DNA from: a bacterium
Lineage (GTDB): Bacteria > SZUA-182 > DTGQ01
DNA length: 30,176 nt
Direction: 5' to 3'
Assembly: GCA_040755755.1 (NCBI GenBank)
Contig: JBFLZW010000029.1
Location: 1-30,176 of the forward strand
Shown here: one piece after another, positions 966 to 15,948 of the stretch
Numbering within the stretch: the first letter of the stretch is position 1
How the letters are laid out: each line of letters opens with the position of its first letter
Program-made: the position numbers and the translations under genes
The notes under the pieces: generated by a model
The model's database searches: none
What the model was told of the DNA's origin: nothing
Seen by the model: the letters and a program-made list of their open reading frames with translations, nothing else

Positions 966-1339
966 AGTCAGCGGACAAGGAAAATACCATCTTCAATTTC
1001 CCTTGCTCTCACTGCCTGGCTGGGGGTACCACATGAAAGGGTCGATCCCTGGTATCACCTGGTATCAAGGATGATACCTGCCAAAACGTGAAGAGTATTC
1101 GGCTCTTGAAACATCATCTTGACTATCGACTGCCATTCCTGCTATTTTTATTTAATAATCACTCTAATTTTGATAATAATATATATTTATAGGATCGTAT
1201 TTTGGAACTCCCATACCCCAGGAATATGGAGTATCTCACCAGGCACTCGAAGATGCGCACCCTAATTGATGGCTCATCATGGTACTCTGATGGCCATTTC
1301 CTGAGAGCAACAGAAGATACTTACCCCCAGAGGATACAA
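966..1339. other. Intergenic region before the large secreted protein
   Basis: No gene is seen. The stretch holds a tandem GGTATCA (1051-1057 and 1061-1067), the second of which pairs with TGATACC at 1072-1078 in a short inverted repeat. From about 1140 it becomes AT-rich, which suits a promoter for the secreted protein, but no convincing -35/-10 pair was found. A TTG at 1202 would lengthen the downstream protein by 46 residues ahead of its signal peptide, which I judge unlikely. Confidence 0.5.
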
Positions 1340-4300
1340 ATGAAACCTGTAATCAGCCTCAATACAATATGCCTGAAAAGGCGCATGGGGATAATTATTC
1401 TCCTGCTTCTGGCAATCCTGATGCCCGGCAAGCCTGCTCTCTCGGCAGTTGTCCTGGAGCCTGGGGCAATATTGGAAGCCGGGGCAATACCGGACCCTGG
1501 AGCAATAACGGCCAAACCGGCTCAAAGAAGTTGTCTGGAGGATAATTCCGGCATCCTGGACATCGAAGGGGTCAGTGGAAAGGTGGGCGATGAGATTCTC
1601 ATTCCAATAAAGATCCAGGCCCTGCCCAGGGCAGTATTTTCCTTTGGCTTTGAAGTTTCTTATGATAGTCGCATTCTGGAATACACGGGTTTTGGCTTTG
1701 GCCGGGGAGATCTGGCTGCTTCACTCAACAGGTTCGATGTCTATTCCTTGAGCCCTGGCAAACTCAGGGGCGGGGGGCTTTCCCTGCGCGATGGGCTCTC
1801 GAAAGGGGCAAATGGCTGCCTTGCCTCGCTGAAGTTTATGATCAGGGGTGGCCTTGAAGGTGAATGTTACCCGGTGAAGCTTGAAAATCTGGTGGATGAC
1901 ATGGCCAATTTTCCTGCCAGTTCCGCGTGTGTCTGTATTACTTCCGTCAGGATGTGGTATAAGGATGCGGACAAAGATGGATATGGCACCAGGAGCGTGG
2001 TTAAGGTCCAGAGTAATCAGCCGTCCGGTTTTGTGTCCAATGCCGATGATTGCGATGACAGCCAGACCAGGATTAACCCGGCCACTGTGTGGTATCAGGA
2101 CGAGGATGGTGATGAATATGGAGATAAGGATTCGTCCAGGGTCCAGTGCAGGCAGCCCGATGGTTATACTCTGAATGCTCCTGACAATTGCCCGAAGGTG
2201 TCCAATCCCAAACAGACAAACAGTGATCAAGACTCCCGGGGAGATGCCTGCGACAATTGTCCTTTTATGGCCAATGAGGATCAGGAGGATAAAGACGGAG
2301 ATGGAGTGGGTGATGCATGTGACCGGTGCCCGGACTATTACAACCCGGATCAGGATGATGCCGCTTCAGTGGTTCCTGACAGGGCAGAATTGCCTCTGCT
2401 GACCCTGAATTGCGGCCAGAAGGTGACACTTACTCCGCCGACAGCTACCGATCCCTGCACCGGCAGGAAAATAACGGCCATAAGAGGGAGCACTGAGGAT
2501 ATCTTCTCCTCTGGACCGGGGACATATACCGTAACCTGGAACTACCAGAAGGATAGGAAAACCATCCTGACCCAGCAGCAGACTATCGCTGTGGTTGATA
2601 AGGAGCCCCCGGTTCCCCACCAGAAAGACCTTCCTGCAATCGTGAGAGACTGCGTGATCACGGATCCAGGGAAGCCATGCACCTGTGAACAAAAACCCAT
2701 CGATCCTCCCAGGGCTACTGACCTGTGCGCTGGAGAAATCATTGCCACTACCCAGGATCCCCTGGTCTGTGAAAGTCCCGGCACCTACAAGGTGACCTGG
2801 ACCTATAGTGATGACTCCACAAAACCTGTCTCACAGACTCAAGAGGTCATCGTGCGGCTTGTGGCCCACGTTGGACCAGGACAGACCTTTGCACGAGTGG
2901 CAGATGGAATTGGTGCTGTGTCTGCTCCAGGTGTTATCGGCAAGATCAAGGTTGCCAGAGGAGAATACCGTTTCGACCCGAAGATTTATGTTCAAAGCAG
3001 GCAAATTCTGGAAGGCGGGTGGGACCCCAATTTCAACATTCGGGACCCGAAGATCTATAAGACGTTACTTTCCGGCAGTTCGATCGTTTTTATCGATGCC
3101 AATGCAGCCAGCCTGGATGGTTTTATTATTGAAAATTCAACTGCCGGTGACAGGGATATACTTCCAGCAATACTACCGGTACGGTTCAGAAAAGAAAGTT
3201 TCGGCAATATTGCCTACTCCGGCGGCGGCATATACTGCAAGAATTCCTCACCGCTCATATCAAACTGCGAGATACTCAATAACCGGGCATATGAAGCAGG
3301 CGGCGGTCTGTTTTGTCTCAATTCCTCTCCAACCATTTCCAACTGCGTCATATCGAAAAACAGGTCCGATCTTTTCGGCGGCGGCATTTGCTGCCTGAAC
3401 TCATCACCGGTCGTTCAAAATTGCACGATCTCGGAAAATACTGCCATGTACGGCAGCGGGATTTCCTGTGACGGTTCCTCGTTTCCGGTTATCATCAACT
3501 GTACCCTATGGAAGAACACGGCTTCCAGCGACGGCGGCGGGATATATGTCAGGGACTCGAGCCTGAAGGCCGTAAACTGCACCCTGTGGGGAAACAGCAG
3601 CGCCTCTCAGGGAGGCAGCATCTATGCTGAAAATTCCCTGTTCACGGTGACGAACAGCATCCTGTGGAATAACCTGCCCGATGAGATATGGTCCGATGCC
3701 GGATCAACCAGCCAGGTAACCTATTGCGCTGTTCAGGGAGGGTTTGGCGCTCCTGAAATCACCCATAATATTCAGAGCAATCCCTTATTCAAGGATCCCA
3801 ATGCCCGGGATTTTCGCCTTTTTTCCGGCATACACCAAAGATCTCCCTGCATCGATGCAGGCACCGGGAGTGAAGCTCCGGATGAGGATAAGGATGGCGA
3901 ATCAAGACCTTACGATGGGGACTGTGACGGGACGCCCGAAGTTGACATTGGTGCTTATGAGTACCGGGATGACCAGCAGCCGGTGCCTGATCTCGATCCC
4001 CTGCCGGCGGTCAGAGGAGATTGCCAGCTTGCCCTGACCCCGCCGACAGCGACCGATGACTGCGCCGGACCGATTACCGCTGTCACTGATAAGCCGCTCC
4101 TCTACACCAGCCAGGGCACTTTTTCGGTGACCTGGACCTATGACGACGGCCACGGGAATATCACCCGGCAGGACCAGACGGTCGTGGTTCAGGATACCAC
4201 TCCCCCTGTTTTCGACCAAAATCCTTTGCCGGACCTGAGATTCGAGTGCGCTGATCAGATACAGATCATCCCGCCGACAGCCACAGATCTTTGCGCCGGA

Positions 4301-5392
4301 AAAGTAACGGCAACCACTGCCGATTCCGTACCCTCATCGGTCGGCACAACTACTCTGACCTGGTGCTATCAGGACACCCTTGGCAATGTCTCGTACCAGA
4401 CGCAGAAGGTTCTGGTGACCGATACCCAAAAGCCGGTGCCGGACCTCGATACCCTGCCGGATATCGTGGCTGAGAATACCGTTACCCTGACACCGCCGAC
4501 AGCCACTGACCGCTGCCAGGGGAAGATTACAGCAATAACCGACCACCTCACCTATACCCAAAAGGGCAGTCATACGGTAATCTGGACCTATCGTGACAGC
4601 AGCGGCAATAGCGTGGAGCAGCAGCAGAAGGTAACTATCAGGCGGGTGCTCTTCACCGGCCCCGGACAGGCATATTCAACCATCAAAGCGGCCCTGGACA
4701 GCGCTGACAGCGAAGATACCATCAGACTGGCCGCAGGCTCATATTCCGGTGTCCAGGTTACCATCCAGAAGGGAATCAGGCTGGAAGGGGGATGGGACAG
4801 CGGTTTTACGCACCGGGATCCCGCCCTCTATCCGGCTGTTCTGGCTGGTGCAGCGGGAGCAGGGCCGGTGATAACCTTTATCAATTGCAATCAGGCAATA
4901 GTTGACGGATTAACCATTACCCATGTCAGCAGTCCGGGCAAGCCCGGGGCCGGCTCCGGAATATCCTGCCGCAATTCTTCTCCCACAATCGTAAACTGCA
5001 TCATATCCGGCAACAGCACCTCGTATGGTGCCGGAATATATTGTGAACATTCCTCTCCCCAGATCGTCCGCTGCACCATCACGGAGAATACCGCTGCCAC
5101 AGCCGGAGGAGGGATTTACTGGACCTCGGACTCCCGGCCAGTTATCCTGGATTGCCGATTCATCCATAATATCAGCCAGGGGAAGCCCAGCCATGTCAGT
5201 ATGGAAAGTAACCCCGGTTTCTCTTCCGACCTCCAGTTGACAGGCCACAAGGCTTTCAGGCAGGTTCAGTTCCTGATCTACAACAACCGGAGCGGGCTGG
5301 GAAGATCTGCCTACCGGTTCTTTGAACAGCCATGCGGGTTGAATCAGGTTATCGGTAACGATGACCTTGTGGTCATCTCCCTTCAGCCATGA
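1340..5392 (+). CDS. Secreted mosaic protein: cohesin-like, TSP3, HYR repeats, two beta-helices
   Basis: A 1350-residue exported protein. The ATG at 1340 follows AGAGGA and places a basic, hydrophobic signal peptide at the N-terminus (RRMGIIILLLLAILMPG, then PALSA). Approximate order: cohesin-like beta-sandwich, residues 72-197; MopE/thrombospondin type-3 calcium-binding repeats, 205-341 (DADKDGYG, DEDGDEYG, DNCPxxxNPxQ, DKDGDGVGDACD); two HYR/Ig-like repeats, 346-507; a right-handed beta-helix of about seven coils rich in GGGI, NSSP and NC, 510-875, ending in SPCIDAG and VDIGAYEY (choice-of-anchor Q type); three more HYR repeats, 877-1104, each with PPTATD; a second, shorter beta-helix, 1106-1297. 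No anchor is visible at the C-terminus. Likely a surface or extracellular, calcium-dependent adhesive or carbohydrate-binding protein; there is no evidence for an enzyme activity. Its 3' end overlaps the convergent gene by 10 bases. Confidence 0.85.
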   Translation: MKPVISLNTICLKRRMGIIILLLLAILMPGKPALSAVVLEPGAILEAGAIPDPGAITAKPAQRSCLEDNSGILDIEGVSGKVGDEILIPIKIQALPRAVFSFGFEVSYDSRILEYTGFGFGRGDLAASLNRFDVYSLSPGKLRGGGLSLRDGLSKGANGCLASLKFMIRGGLEGECYPVKLENLVDDMANFPASSACVCITSVRMWYKDADKDGYGTRSVVKVQSNQPSGFVSNADDCDDSQTRINPATVWYQDEDGDEYGDKDSSRVQCRQPDGYTLNAPDNCPKVSNPKQTNSDQDSRGDACDNCPFMANEDQEDKDGDGVGDACDRCPDYYNPDQDDAASVVPDRAELPLLTLNCGQKVTLTPPTATDPCTGRKITAIRGSTEDIFSSGPGTYTVTWNYQKDRKTILTQQQTIAVVDKEPPVPHQKDLPAIVRDCVITDPGKPCTCEQKPIDPPRATDLCAGEIIATTQDPLVCESPGTYKVTWTYSDDSTKPVSQTQEVIVRLVAHVGPGQTFARVADGIGAVSAPGVIGKIKVARGEYRFDPKIYVQSRQILEGGWDPNFNIRDPKIYKTLLSGSSIVFIDANAASLDGFIIENSTAGDRDILPAILPVRFRKESFGNIAYSGGGIYCKNSSPLISNCEILNNRAYEAGGGLFCLNSSPTISNCVISKNRSDLFGGGICCLNSSPVVQNCTISENTAMYGSGISCDGSSFPVIINCTLWKNTASSDGGGIYVRDSSLKAVNCTLWGNSSASQGGSIYAENSLFTVTNSILWNNLPDEIWSDAGSTSQVTYCAVQGGFGAPEITHNIQSNPLFKDPNARDFRLFSGIHQRSPCIDAGTGSEAPDEDKDGESRPYDGDCDGTPEVDIGAYEYRDDQQPVPDLDPLPAVRGDCQLALTPPTATDDCAGPITAVTDKPLLYTSQGTFSVTWTYDDGHGNITRQDQTVVVQDTTPPVFDQNPLPDLRFECADQIQIIPPTATDLCAGKVTATTADSVPSSVGTTTLTWCYQDTLGNVSYQTQKVLVTDTQKPVPDLDTLPDIVAENTVTLTPPTATDRCQGKITAITDHLTYTQKGSHTVIWTYRDSSGNSVEQQQKVTIRRVLFTGPGQAYSTIKAALDSADSEDTIRLAAGSYSGVQVTIQKGIRLEGGWDSGFTHRDPALYPAVLAGAAGAGPVITFINCNQAIVDGLTITHVSSPGKPGAGSGISCRNSSPTIVNCIISGNSTSYGAGIYCEHSSPQIVRCTITENTAATAGGGIYWTSDSRPVILDCRFIHNISQGKPSHVSMESNPGFSSDLQLTGHKAFRQVQFLIYNNRSGLGRSAYRFFEQPCGLNQVIGNDDLVVISLQP

Positions 5393-11155: not shown

Positions 11156-12352
11156 CTATTGACCTGCTGGCGTATTCCCTGCGGGGGGAGCCGCAGGTGC
11201 AGCAGGAGCTGGTGGTGAACCTGCTCCGGGAGAAGGAGTTGCCGGATTTTCCGGTGCAGGCGATGGTTTCGGTAAAAAGGTTTTTATGTCAGCCTTCTCC
11301 CGTAAGGACTGAATGTAATTTTTAACGGCATCGCTCCGCTGTTTTCCGCTGAGGTACTGCTGGATCCGGGCTTTACTTTCTTCGAAGGAACTTTCAGCAG
11401 CAGGCTTAGTATTGGTAACTTTAATGATATGGTAGCCAAACGGGGTTTCGACCACGTTGCTGATTTCCCCAACCTTCATGCTAAAGGCTGCCTGAGAGAA
11501 TTCCGGAACCATCTGTTTGCGGGTAAAAAAGCCCAGGTCCCCGCCGTTTTGAGAGCTTGGGCAATCGGAATTTTCCTTGGCAAGTTTAGCGAAATCTTCG
11601 CCTGCCCTGGCTTTCTTGAGGATTCCCTCAATTTTCTCTTTAGCCTGCTTCTTCGTTGCCTCATCAGCATTCTTTTCAACCTTGACCAGGATATGGCTGG
11701 CCTGGACCATCTCTTCCTGCTTAAACTGATCCTTATGCGCCTCATAGTACTTTTTGAGATCTTCATCGCTTGCCTGCTGGGATGTGGTTTGAGCAGTTAT
11801 CTGCTGCTGAATAACCTTGGAGATGATCATGTTCTTTCTTAACTCATTCTTCAGATCATCCAGGTTTATATTATTCTCTTTTAACCTGTTATTAAACTCC
11901 TCTTCGGTGGGGAACTGTTTTTTGAATTGCTCAATCCGGGCCAGTATCTCTTCGTCCGGAATCGTAATGTTGAGCTCCTTGCCTTTTTGGCAAATCAATT
12001 CACCCTCGACCAGCCGGTCAAGAATCATCTGCTGAAGCTGGAGCTTTTGCTCCGGCGGCATTTTATCTGCCATATCCGGGTTCTGGGAGGTATGAGCATT
12101 CAAGGTCCGGTCCAGTTCTTTTCGAGAGATATTCACTCCATTAACCGTAGCGACGACATCGCCCGGACTCTGAAGCTGACCGGATGGGGATTGTTTTTCT
12201 CCCCCCTCCTTTGGTGCAGCGGGAGAAGATGTGGTTCCTTTATCTTCACCCTTGCCAGGTGTGGGAGAAGAATGGCAGGAATAAAGCAATAAAGAGATAC
12301 AGGCGCAGGCAAAAAGTGTTACGGTAAATCTGACAGTCTTTTGATAATTCAT
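11156..12352 (-). CDS. Parvulin-type peptidylprolyl isomerase lipoprotein (SurA/PrsA-like)
   Basis: A 398-residue chaperone-isomerase that should assist folding of exported proteins at the periplasmic face. The start at 12352 follows AAGGAGG with good spacing. A signal peptide ends in a lipobox LYSC with the lipidated Cys26. A Ser/Pro/Gly-rich linker follows. A SurA_N-type helical region covers about 65-200 ([38 protein letters not shown]). The single parvulin domain covers about 215-313 and contains the expected [25 protein letters not shown] and [13 protein letters not shown]. The last 40 residues are almost only Pro, Ala and Gly, probably an extended envelope-spanning tail. It appears monocistronic, with its own promoter (12438-12466) and a likely terminator (11056-11085). 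Confidence 0.92.
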
Positions 12353-12437
12353 TACTTTCCTCCTTGGTTTCAATGACGACTATAGACTGCTGGTAAGGAA
12401 CAGACACTCAGCCGGAACTCTCTGTCATAAAATCGGA

Positions 12438-12681: not shown

Positions 12682-13024
12682 GCTCAATCCGGTTTCATTA
12701 TCGGCCTTTTTCTGGAAAATATACTATCCGGGTAACTATCGTAACTATTCACTTTCCTTCGGTTTTCCGTCATTCCGACTGAATGGATAAATCTTGGAAT
12801 GTACGGTTATTCAAACAGTTGGCTGGCTACTATCTTTCATATCCGTTCGGGATGTCCAGGAGTGCTGAACGATTACGCTACATCCATAGCTGCTTTATAA
12901 AGACTAATATTTTCAATAAATTAACTAGCTTATGCCGGGAATGAAAAATAAATGAGTGTAGGAAAAGACTACAAATTTATTATTTTCCTCATCATACCTG
13001 GCGGATAAGTCGAAAAAATCAGCA

Positions 13025-13040
13025 TGGCATAAACATTGCA
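13025..13040 (+). promoter_or_regulatory. Sigma-54 (-24/-12) promoter of the PEP-CTERM gene
   Basis: TGGCATAAACATTGCA matches the RpoN consensus TGGCAC-N5-TTGCW at all positions but one, with the invariant GG and GC at the correct ten-base gap. The expected start near 13052 gives a leader of about 190 bases. RpoN promoters upstream of PEP-CTERM genes are known in PrsK/PrsR-regulated systems, so the match fits the gene it precedes. The enhancer-binding site was not identified. Confidence 0.7.
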
Positions 13041-13055
13041 AAGTTCGAGGTAGAA

Positions 13056-13247
13056 GTGCTTTCAAGGAGGGGGAATACTGGTAAGGAGGTGATAGTAAAA
13101 ATAGAGTTATGCTGCAATGAGACTTCCAAAGGGAGCTTGCTCCGAGGCTATGCTCCGGAAGATGTCTCCCAAGAAATGAAAGTGAAATGTCTCTTTTCGG
13201 TCCTTAAACTGCAAGTTCTCAATCTCGAAGAAGGGTTCATACTATGA
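13056..13247 (+). CDS. Possible leader ORF upstream of the PEP-CTERM gene
   Basis: A 63-codon frame opens with GTG at 13056 and ends with a TGA that overlaps the ATG of the PEP-CTERM gene (ATGA, 13244-13247), an arrangement that would couple translation. A second in-frame GTG at 13089 abuts AAGGAG, too close for a normal site. The predicted product (KIELCCNETSKGSLLRGY in the middle) resembles nothing I know. Because the predicted sigma-54 transcript begins near 13052, the first start would have almost no leader. The sequence also folds as RNA (13119-13168), so it may simply be untranslated leader. Confidence 0.25.
   Translation: MLSRRGNTGKEVIVKIELCCNETSKGSLLRGYAPEDVSQEMKVKCLFSVLKLQVLNLEEGFIL
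13119..13168 (+). ncRNA. Structured 5' leader element of the PEP-CTERM mRNA
   Basis: The stretch can fold with an outer stem GAGAC (13119-13123)/GTCTC (13164-13168) extended by TTCC (13124-13127)/GGAA (13157-13160). Inside is a hairpin GGAG/CTCC (13132-13135 and 13140-13143). A second CTCC at 13153-13156 can compete for the same GGAG, giving two alternative folds. It does not match a riboswitch class that I can name. Confidence 0.35.
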
Positions 13248-13822
13248 AACATGTAATGGCTATCGCTCTTTCTCTTGGCTTATTCTTCCTGTCATCCATT
13301 CTCATTCCATCTCCGGCTGCGGCATCAACCTTTGATTTTGACGGTTATATTACTTATCATAATGATGTTGTACCAATCGCTTTCACCTTAAACAACGATG
13401 CTACCGATGTAAGGGTATGGACCGATTCATTTCAAAACGGCGCTAATTTCGATCCTATTACGGCAGTGTGGCGTAGCGATGGAACTTTACTTGGAGAAAA
13501 TGACGATAATGATACCATAAATCCCGCAACTCAAACCTACTGGGATTCAGGGCTCTATTTTGCTTCTCTGGCTGCCGGGGATTATCTTTTTACCGTTGCA
13601 GCATATTCCAATTTTGCAAATGGACCAACCTTAGCAGATGGTTTTCGGTTTGATGGCGATATTCCTATCCCAATCGAAAACTGGTGGGTACAGGCTCCAG
13701 GATATTACCATGTATGGCTTGATGGAGTTGACAATGCAGCACCGGTCCCAGAACCTGCTACTTACCTGCTTTTCCTCTTCGGTTTAGCAGGATTGGTAGG
13801 AGTAAAGAAGAGATTCAGTTGA
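13244..13822 (+). CDS. PEP-CTERM exported protein, DVUA0089-like
   Basis: A 192-residue exported protein. A signal peptide ends near residue 28 (AAAS before TFDFDGYITY). The core resembles the DVUA0089 family of beta-sandwich exported proteins (FDPITAVWRSDGTLLGENDD, SGLYFASLAAGDYLFTV, NFANGPTLADGFRFDGD). The C-terminus is a classic PEP-CTERM tripartite signal: VPEP (168-171), a hydrophobic stretch (YLLFLFGLAGLVGV) and a basic end (KKRFS). Such tails are recognised and cut by an exosortase (EpsH/XrtA type) in bacteria that make extracellular polysaccharide; no exosortase gene is in this window. The gene is preceded by a sigma-54 promoter and a structured leader and is followed by a strong terminator, so it is an independent unit. 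Confidence 0.9.
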   Translation: MKHVMAIALSLGLFFLSSILIPSPAAASTFDFDGYITYHNDVVPIAFTLNNDATDVRVWTDSFQNGANFDPITAVWRSDGTLLGENDDNDTINPATQTYWDSGLYFASLAAGDYLFTVAAYSNFANGPTLADGFRFDGDIPIPIENWWVQAPGYYHVWLDGVDNAAPVPEPATYLLFLFGLAGLVGVKKRFS

Positions 13823-13844
13823 TAGCACTTCCTATCGGATATTG

Positions 13845-13877
13845 AAAGGCAGAGCCGATAAAGGCTCTGCCTTTTTT
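13845..13877 (+). terminator. Rho-independent terminator of the PEP-CTERM gene
   Basis: Twelve-base arms (AAAGGCAGAGCC and its complement) enclose a six-base loop, and the stem runs into six T residues. It lies 23 bases after the stop at 13822. Confidence 0.88.
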
Positions 13878-14104: not shown

Positions 14105-14446
14105 TTAACAGGTCAGATGGAGAGCGGCCACTACCTTTCTGATGGCTGACAGCTTATTGCAGGTTTTCCAGGCGTTAACAGTATCTTCAACGATCAGGAT
14201 TATTCCCTGATCAGCGACCTGCCTCCTGAGTCCATCAGGAACCCTCATGCAGCCCGCATATCCGGTACCTACGATCAGTATATCTGGCCTCGATTCCAGC
14301 GCATCCTCGATATCTTCAAGACTGAGCACGTGCCCCTCTTTTCGCCACCAGGGGGAAATGACCCTGTCAGGAAATATTTTGAGATCCGAATCATAACGGA
14401 CCCCATCAATGACGATGGAACCAAAAGTATAATCCTCAATGGTCAT
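14105..14446 (-). CDS. Mth938-like (DUF498/AAMDC family) protein
   Basis: A 113-residue single-domain protein of the Mth938-like fold, related to NDUFAF3 and AAMDC of eukaryotes. Family hallmarks are YTFGSIVIDGVRYDSDLKIFPD at the N-terminus, then PWWRKEGHVLSLEDIEDAL, DILIVGTGYAGCMRVPD (the glycine-rich loop) and a C-terminal VEDTVNAWKTCNKLSA. Length fits the family. The biochemical role in bacteria is not established. GGAGG lies about 11 bases before the ATG. The gene follows the Gly-rich exported protein by 84 bases on the same strand and may share its transcript. Confidence 0.85.
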   Translation of the reverse strand: MTIEDYTFGSIVIDGVRYDSDLKIFPDRVISPWWRKEGHVLSLEDIEDALESRPDILIVGTGYAGCMRVPDGLRRQVADQGIILIVEDTVNAWKTCNKLSAIRKVVAALHLTC

Positions 14447-14530
14447 ATCCCGTTGTTCCTCCCCTTCCTTCCCCTGAAACTGTCCCCCTGTATCCCCCTG
14501 AAATCATCGAATCCAGGGATATGATAATGA

Positions 14531-15673
14531 TTAGATCGGAGGGAACAGGAACGACAGAGGAGTAAAAATCGGAGGAATGAATAAAGGAGAGGCTGCCGGA
14601 GGTAACAGTGCAGGTGTTGTCAGCGGTACAGTCGCTGTCAGGGTTGGAGCGACGGCGGTTGGGGCCGCAATCCCCGGAATGGGTGTTATCGGTACAGGAA
14701 TGGTCACAGGTGCAGTCACTGCTGTCGGCACCGTGACCACCTGAGTAGGAGCCGACACCGATATGGCCGGAGCTATCAGAGAAAGGTCAAAATTGCCTGC
14801 ATCACCTTTGGAATAAAGCTGATCATAGAGCACATACCGCCCGGTGATATTCTCCGGGTCAACTAAAGTGCAATCCAGTTTCAGTGACCATTCTTTCAAA
14901 AGTAAATCAATATATGTTCCGGTGAGGACAAAGGTGGAGTCTACCGGATCGAATGTACCTGACACATCGACCGGGCCGGTAAGGTATCTGTTGAGCAGCA
15001 GCGTGCAGCTTCCCGATAGCTCACGGGTAACGGGAGCTTCAACCAGATCAAGAGTCATTTTGCCGGTTGAAGATGTCTTGACCAGGCTGAACCATGTTCC
15101 CTCCCATGAACCTGCCTGCTCGGCTGCAATAAATGACCTGACAACCCGCTTCCCCTGCTGTTTGCCAGCCGTATTCAGGGGAAGCTCGGCAGACGGATTC
15201 GGAGCGGCAGCCGAAATAGTTGATGACTGGCTGCTCATCAGTCCGGCCCAAGGGCCAAAGGCCAGTAAATAGGCAAGACTTACAGGATCATAGAAGCCGC
15301 CATAACCATAGATTCCAATCCCTCCCAGGCCTAAAAAGCCGAATGCGCCGAGTGCACCCAATCCGCTCAACCCGTTCAATCCGATGCCCCCATAGGGACT
15401 GCCGAGAATTCCCAGGGCATAGGGGGACGCCCCGCCAAAACCGAGAGGTCCAAACAGCAACCCTCCCTGCTGGCCATACCATCCTCCCAAGCCCAGGCCC
15501 ACTCCCCCAAGACTGGAAAAACCTAAAGGATAGGAGCCGCCACTGCCAAACAGGCTGTAAAAGGCGTATGAATCCGGAGAGCCGTTCAAGAAAAAAAACG
15601 AGAACAGAAAAACGGTGAGCAGCAGAGAAAAGTGAGCTGTAGTGATCCATTTCTTGACGGCCGCAGAAGCCAT
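14531..15673 (-). CDS. Exported Gly-rich protein with C-terminal Pro/Thr-rich tail
   Basis: A 380-residue protein that I do not recognise. The start at 15673 (MASAAVKKW) has a GGGGGG stretch at proper spacing. A signal peptide covers about residues 5-35 (FSLLLTVFLFSFFF). Residues about 40-135 are extremely rich in Gly, Leu and Tyr with repeats such as LGGxGxxGLGG and SPYGGIGLNG, a composition typical of surface or matrix proteins. A beta-rich domain follows at about 180-300 (SWEGTWFSLVKTSSTGKMTL, SGTFDPVDSTFVLTGTY). The tail from about 305 is rich in Pro, Thr, Val and Ala and ends hydrophobically (FIPPIFTPLSFLFPPI). It is probably anchored or surface-exposed; no enzymatic motif is visible. 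Confidence 0.75.
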   Translation of the reverse strand: MASAAVKKWITTAHFSLLLTVFLFSFFFLNGSPDSYAFYSLFGSGGSYPLGFSSLGGVGLGLGGWYGQQGGLLFGPLGFGGASPYALGILGSPYGGIGLNGLSGLGALGAFGFLGLGGIGIYGYGGFYDPVSLAYLLAFGPWAGLMSSQSSTISAAAPNPSAELPLNTAGKQQGKRVVRSFIAAEQAGSWEGTWFSLVKTSSTGKMTLDLVEAPVTRELSGSCTLLLNRYLTGPVDVSGTFDPVDSTFVLTGTYIDLLLKEWSLKLDCTLVDPENITGRYVLYDQLYSKGDAGNFDLSLIAPAISVSAPTQVVTVPTAVTAPVTIPVPITPIPGIAAPTAVAPTLTATVPLTTPALLPPAASPLFIPPIFTPLSFLFPPI

Positions 15674-15687
15674 GTAGTATTCCCCCC

Positions 15688-15948
15688 TCAATAGTCCTGA
15701 AAAAGCAAAGCCGGATCCTTCGAGCCTTCTCGTACGTATTTCCCGATCCTGGTGCCTGTTTGCAGACTTTTCACAAAACCGATCCCGGCCTGATGCCTAT
15801 CCATGAGATCCCCAAGGAGATTGGCTATTTGCCATATTTTCTCCTTCCCCTCTGGATATACTCCTGGCACCATATCGGGCTCAAGAGCAGCAAACAGCAT
15901 GCCAGGCAGAAGAGGGTACGGTAAACGATGATTAAGCCAAAATTTCAC
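15688..15948 (-). CDS. Small ORF upstream of the Gly-rich gene, doubtful
   Basis: An 86-codon frame opening at a GTG (15948) and ending 14 bases before the ATG of the Gly-rich gene. Composition is protein-like (VPGVYPEGKEKIWQIANLL, GIGFVKSLQTGTRIGKYV), and the spacing fits an operon, but the start has no ribosome binding site and no ATG exists further upstream in frame. The frame stays open to about 16020, so it may be the tail of a gene that has lost its start. I do not recognise a family. Confidence 0.35.
   Translation of the reverse strand: MKFWLNHRLPYPLLPGMLFAALEPDMVPGVYPEGKEKIWQIANLLGDLMDRHQAGIGFVKSLQTGTRIGKYVREGSKDPALLFQDY

Follow-up and report, generated by a model that had tools for sequence, protein, structure and literature searches.

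A PEP-CTERM protein gene with a perfect sigma-54 promoter element and an upstream palindrome, in a genome encoding PrsK, PrsR and PrsT

Haft et al. (2006; PMC1569441) described PEP-CTERM genes that stand as single-gene units behind a large upstream region carrying a sigma-54 motif, together with the corresponding PrsK, PrsR and PrsT proteins. The predicted PrsR site in that study is a 17-nt "motif 1" that ends in TTTACA and is set off by a spacer of 32–92 nt, with distances of up to 221 between the sigma-54 site and the start, and the motifs were found only in Proteobacteria as then defined. Two later studies bear on the same kind of control. In pepA of Aquincola tertiaricarbonis RN12, a −24/−12 promoter was mapped and found to be RpoN1-dependent, and the gene is followed by a terminator (PMC9850573); in Desulfovibrio vulgaris, DVUA0057, a PrsR-type sigma-54 activator, bound DNA in vitro at predicted PEP-CTERM targets (PMC3333781). 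The original prediction for the locus described below had called RpoN control of PEP-CTERM genes through PrsK and PrsR "established" in some polysaccharide-forming bacteria, a slightly strong word: it holds for the RpoN dependence of one PEP-CTERM gene (PMC9850573) and for binding in vitro (PMC3333781), whereas the full chain from PrsK to PrsR is still mostly predicted. More generally, surface functions are a recurrent target of sigma-54 (PMC3162934).

The locus lies in a window of 30,176 nucleotides (the whole stretch of DNA that was analysed) and is a clear member of this PrsK/PrsR/sigma-54 promoter class (Table 1). A 17-bp palindrome, TGTAG-N7-CTACA, is separated by a 51-nt spacer from a sigma-54 motif, i.e., it has the length of motif 1 and a spacing inside the published 32–92 nt, and the gene behind it is a single-gene unit with a large upstream region in a genome that also encodes PrsK, PrsR, PrsT and exosortase. 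Two points set it apart from the published class: the half-sites are TGTAG/CTACA, as opposed to the TTTACA end given in PMC1569441, and IHF-type sites accompany most of the boxes. The box variant and the IHF-type sites are best regarded as features of the lineage. The class of the organism comprises nine genomes in the collection searched, and it is probably not one of the large proteobacterial classes. The 203 nt between the sigma-54 element TGGCATAAACATTGCA and the ATG of the 192-aa PEP-CTERM gene (the original prediction gave about 205 for this RpoN-type element) are near the top of the published range. With Aquincola pepA the locus shares a PEP-CTERM gene, a terminator after the gene and a −24/−12 promoter, mapped there and predicted here; the pepA intergenic region measures only ~85 nt, however, and the protein is a different one. 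With the D. vulgaris system it shares a PrsR-type activator and a product of the DVUA0089 family, which takes its name from a gene of that species; no binding motif has been validated in D. vulgaris, and the lineage is different.

Table 1. Positions of the features of the locus, numbered from the first nucleotide of the window
Feature	Position	Strand	Remarks
IHF-type site TTTCAATAAATTA	12911..12923	+	weak; one mismatch to WATCAA-N4-TTR; 46 bp upstream of the box
Palindrome TGTAGGAAAAGACTACA, predicted PrsR enhancer box	12957..12973		copies before PEP-CTERM genes; length and spacing of motif 1
Sigma-54 −24/−12 promoter element TGGCATAAACATTGCA	13025..13040	+	perfect match to the TGGCAY-N5-TTGCW consensus; rpoN in genome
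First Shine-Dalgarno-like element AAGGAGG	13064..13070	+	no start codon; 13 nt after the predicted transcript start
Second Shine-Dalgarno-like element AAGGAGGTGAT	13083..13093	+	no usable start codon; 32 nt after the predicted transcript start
Open GTG frame, 52 codons	13089..13247	+	overlaps the ATG of the gene by ATGA
PEP-CTERM protein gene, 192 aa	13244..13822	+	with signal peptide
DVUA0089-family domain, aa 25–162	13316..13729	+	NF038127, 149 bits (cut-off 29)
PEP-CTERM sorting tail, aa 167–187	13742..13804	+	PF07589 and TIGR02595 above cut-offs
Intrinsic terminator	13844..13875	+	13-bp stem and T-run

The product had been announced as a clear PEP-CTERM protein, and the profiles agree, with 28.1 bits for PF07589 (Pfam cut-off 20.7) and 24.5 bits for TIGR02595 (NCBIfam cut-off 16). 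It has the marks of an exosortase substrate, i.e., a PEP motif, a hydrophobic helix and a basic C-terminal end together with a score above the curated cut-off, and at its N-terminus inspection and a crude score point to the signal peptide MKHVMAIALSLGLFFLSSILIPSPAAAS. Across the named genomes, only two relatives were found at the protein level, both of them weak and partial. The upstream neighbour (11156–12373), which encodes a SurA-like peptidyl-prolyl isomerase, is on the opposite strand, and the downstream neighbour (14531–15691, minus strand) is an unrelated secreted-protein gene, so that the PEP-CTERM gene stands alone. With its own sigma-54 element and the strong terminator that had been predicted, this single gene is in fact a self-contained unit. 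Elsewhere in the window, a 1396-aa protein (1202–5392, plus strand) with cohesin, HYR-like and right-handed beta-helix (PMP-like) domains is probably a large surface protein.

As sequence features, the sigma-54 promoter and the PEP-CTERM protein are near certain. The statistics are based on searches of the genome and on roughly 0.8 Mb of retrieved sequence. The genome contains 75 sites of the form TGGCAY-N5-TTGCW against 6 for a reversed control pattern, and the motif is therefore real in this genome and the promoter type truly used. The prediction that such elements would also precede other PEP-CTERM genes was borne out, a perfect site being present within 300 bp upstream of two of the nine PEP-CTERM genes (~0.02 expected, P ~2e-4). 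The position of the element predicts a transcript start near 13051. A second perfect sigma-54 element of the window (15889–15904, minus strand) lies ~200 nt before the gene at 14531–15691; this codes for a 386-aa secreted protein that matches no Pfam or NCBIfam family, and is another sigma-54 surface gene with a long leader.

The palindrome falls outside the stretch 13025–13877 that the original prediction covered, and was missed there. It was first noticed when the sequences preceding the sigma-54 sites were read for five PEP-CTERM genes, three of which had it, the window included, and TGTAG-N7-CTACA was then searched in four genomes of the family. The genome holds seven copies, six of which are upstream of four of its nine PEP-CTERM genes (two copies on contig C1, two on C3, one on C10 and one in the window); the other five PEP-CTERM genes are without the box. 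When the loci used to read the motif are excluded, two of the three remaining copies precede a PEP-CTERM gene (P ~4e-6). In the genome of a sister genus (G001), 5 of the 11 copies are before PEP-CTERM genes called by HMM (P ~7e-12), a gene ending PIPGSFLLLACGLFGLALLKRERS / SNVPIPGSFLLLACGLFGLALLKRERS is preceded by a sixth box and a sigma-54 site with one mismatch, and a seventh box, at a contig end, has a sigma-54 partner with two mismatches. Box and perfect sigma-54 site also precede a PEP-CTERM gene (L096) in a genome that belongs to the same order but a different family, which brings the pair of box and sigma-54 site before PEP-CTERM genes to three genera. Of 72 perfect sigma-54 sites inspected across the genome, the one in the window alone follows a perfect box by no more than 300 bp; at the remaining PEP-CTERM genes with a box, the sigma-54 site has one or two mismatches. 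The box of the window has the 3′ end ACTACA, and relatives were searched for CTACA-type boxes only. In two further genomes (G002 and G003), boxes were no more numerous than the reversed control and none preceded a PEP-CTERM gene. In G005, which belongs to the same class, neither the box nor a perfect sigma-54 site accompanies the many PEP-CTERM genes, and the promoter type is thus not universal in the class. A gene near the prsK/prsR/prsT genes of C10 (L033; C10:88297, minus strand) encodes a PEP-CTERM protein and has a perfect sigma-54 site without the TGTAG box; a different palindrome, GTTTTGActgaatTCAAAAC, is found there 44 bp before the promoter element, and is perhaps the site of another activator.

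IHF-type sites close to the enhancer are a usual architecture of enhancer-dependent promoters. Around the boxes, ten exact WATCAA-N4-TTR sites were counted, spread over 8 of 11 box regions and sharing one strand; 126 kb of upstream sequence gives an expectation of 0.34, and Markov resampling of the regions one of 0.55. They are mostly placed between box and promoter, or 29–46 bp before the box. The box region of the window contains no exact copy of the consensus, only the one-mismatch copy of Table 1, whose offset is that of an exact copy at −46 at locus L031. These positions and counts suggest that IHF may bind at such sites.

The partners that had been predicted elsewhere in the genome, namely an exosortase, a PrsR-type activator and polysaccharide genes, were all found, as was rpoN. 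Two PrsR proteins score 562.8 and 548.5 bits (cut-off 502.6) and two PrsK proteins 454 and 443 bits (cut-off 300), their genes being paired at C10 and at C80, and a PrsT (507.5 bits, cut-off 312.2) adjoins the pair on C10. Exosortase (EpsH) matches comprise two strong ones and one weak. The XrtA-type exopolysaccharide cluster on C10 consists of an exosortase, EpsI, an XrtA-type glycosyltransferase, a FemAB-like protein, an amidotransferase, a chain-length determinant and a polysaccharide deacetylase. The genome as a whole has about nine PEP-CTERM genes, and dozens of matches to NtrC-type regulators. Three minor observations belong here. Exosortase and the XrtA-system polysaccharide deacetylase are normally separate genes; a 633-aa reading frame on C10 (L165:10820–12718, minus strand), with exosortase at aa 9–281 and XrtA-system polysaccharide deacetylase at aa 313–575, is apparently a fusion of the two. 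On C80 (L166:5174–9521, plus strand), a weakly scoring PEP-CTERM gene is placed between the second prsK and prsR. On C17 (L145, near 14397–15646), an inverted repeat GTAGACAGGGAGGTG...CACCTCCCTGTCTAC is found between two divergent genes.

The presence and order of these elements, their recurrence in front of other PEP-CTERM genes and the full set of protein partners are shown by the sequence, and they make it likely that a gene for an exosortase-sorted surface protein, forming a one-gene operon, is under the known PrsK/PrsR/sigma-54 system. The membrane kinase PrsK would sense a signal and activate the NtrC-type regulator PrsR, which would bind the palindrome; a bend in the DNA, probably made by IHF, would bring PrsR to the sigma-54 RNA polymerase at the −24/−12 element, and transcription would run from near 13051 to the terminator. 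The product would then be exported via its signal peptide, and its PEP-CTERM tail recognised and presumably processed by the exosortase of the genome, with the protein thereby attached to, or kept at, the exopolysaccharide-coated surface, where it may have a role in the matrix. PrsR as the activator, together with sorting by exosortase, is a reading that we hold with strong confidence. If correct, it supplies a sharp target on the DNA for PrsR in a lineage that has been little studied: PEP-CTERM genes there are marked jointly by the variant palindrome, a sigma-54 promoter and IHF-type sites, a signature by which the exosortase regulon could be catalogued in genomes assembled from metagenomes.

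Several points weigh against the PrsR reading. The half-site is not that published for proteobacteria (TTTACA 3′ end), either of the two PrsK/PrsR pairs may be the one that acts here, and with dozens of NtrC-type matches in the genome the box could belong to another regulator; the exact IHF consensus is also absent from the window, and five of the nine PEP-CTERM genes are without the box. One might then suppose that the promoter is sigma-54-dependent and that another NtrC-type protein binds the TGTAG-N7-CTACA box, a suggestion further favored by L033, which is close to prsK/prsR/prsT and has a sigma-54 site and no box. Against it, the copies of the box are found almost only before PEP-CTERM genes, as expected for a dedicated regulator, and box length and spacing match motif 1, so we consider a different activator unlikely. 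The sigma-54 match itself might be a coincidence and the gene use another promoter: motif matches alone are no proof, and one-mismatch sites are expected by chance at a mean of 2.3 in a sequence the size of the window. The site here is perfect, though, with a correctly spaced box; the same pair precedes PEP-CTERM genes in three genera; and on the plus strand no sigma-70-like site is present between 12612 and 13331, i.e., none close upstream of the gene. Coincidence is thus highly improbable, and control by PrsR and sigma-54 is the preferred reading.

The stretch between promoter and gene had been described as a long structured leader, of which the length stood and the structure did not. From the expected start to the ATG it measures ~193 nt, and its predicted fold of −42.5 kcal/mol is weaker than the shuffled mean of −50.9 kcal/mol (z +1.9); a search of the leader against Rfam gave no gathering match and one chance-level hit (E 0.5), and on these two results a structured cis-regulatory RNA was rejected. 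Nor is the length special to this gene, since leaders of >200 nt follow many sigma-54 sites of the genome and 203 nt is within the published maximum. What the leaders do contain are Shine-Dalgarno-like elements. In 60 sigma-54 leaders of the genome, AGGAGGTG is found away from a start codon 9 times (0.23 in shuffles) and never on the other strand, counts that were noticed before testing and whose P values are therefore optimistic. The leaders that bear it are >200 nt long and precede signal-peptide genes. GGAGGTG was counted 6 times (0.31 expected) in 27 regions upstream of PEP-CTERM genes in the family, the copy at L052 being probably the true ribosome site of a TTG start. That such elements mark all secreted-protein leaders was rejected, as the genome-wide excess counted with 7-mers is only ~1.6-fold and not specific to signal-peptide genes, and the claim is therefore restricted to sigma-54 leaders.

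A precedent for a ribosome-binding sequence of this kind is the STAB-SD of the Bacillus thuringiensis cry3A mRNA, whose mechanism is defined by the blocking of RNase J (PMC4113751). As in cry3A, the sequence in the window is start-less and lies a long way ahead of the gene, close to the predicted mRNA 5′ end. The two Shine-Dalgarno-like elements of Table 1 might act by holding a 30S subunit, so that the mRNA is protected or loaded in advance, an effect that would add to the main explanation. The excess in sigma-54 leaders on one strand favors this, and so does the cry3A precedent; on the other side, no match to TIGR00649, the model used for RNase J, was found in the genome at E 0.001, so that a STAB-SD in the strict RNase J sense was rejected, the bacterium is of a different kind, other upstream regions across the genome show only a mild excess, and in two non-PEP-CTERM leaders a tiny reading frame makes use of such a site. 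The idea is a tentative one for this locus. That long sigma-54 leaders of exported-protein genes in the lineage carry a dedicated start-less ribosome-binding element, AAGGAGGTG, which holds 30S subunits and stabilises or pre-loads the mRNA, is likewise possible and somewhat doubtful; if true, it would be a STAB-SD-like device without detectable RNase J, tied to sigma-54 control of surface proteins, and it is a question separate from regulation by PrsR. The leader could instead encode a small protein (13089–13247), translationally coupled to the PEP-CTERM gene via the ATGA overlap. Its 52 codons are open and its codon bias equals that of the PEP-CTERM gene, which is indecisive. However, the only start is a GTG that overlaps the Shine-Dalgarno-like element, the leaders of other PEP-CTERM genes have no matching frame, open frames this long are not uncommon by chance, and no homologue beyond chance was found in nine genomes, which led to its rejection as a conserved small protein; a resemblance to an open frame in the leader of L011 has a shuffle rate of 16/3000 in a comparison chosen after the fact, and is given no weight. 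The frame is probably not a real gene, and coupled translation from it is very unlikely. Copies of the Shine-Dalgarno-like AAGGAGGTG far upstream of start codons, over-represented in sigma-54 leaders, are seen for example at L174, L183, L191, L011 and L158. At L174 and L183, which are the two non-PEP-CTERM leaders just mentioned, the tiny reading frames served by the site (MIGEKKIKKEV... and MIHYKKIKKEV...) contain a second copy of it.
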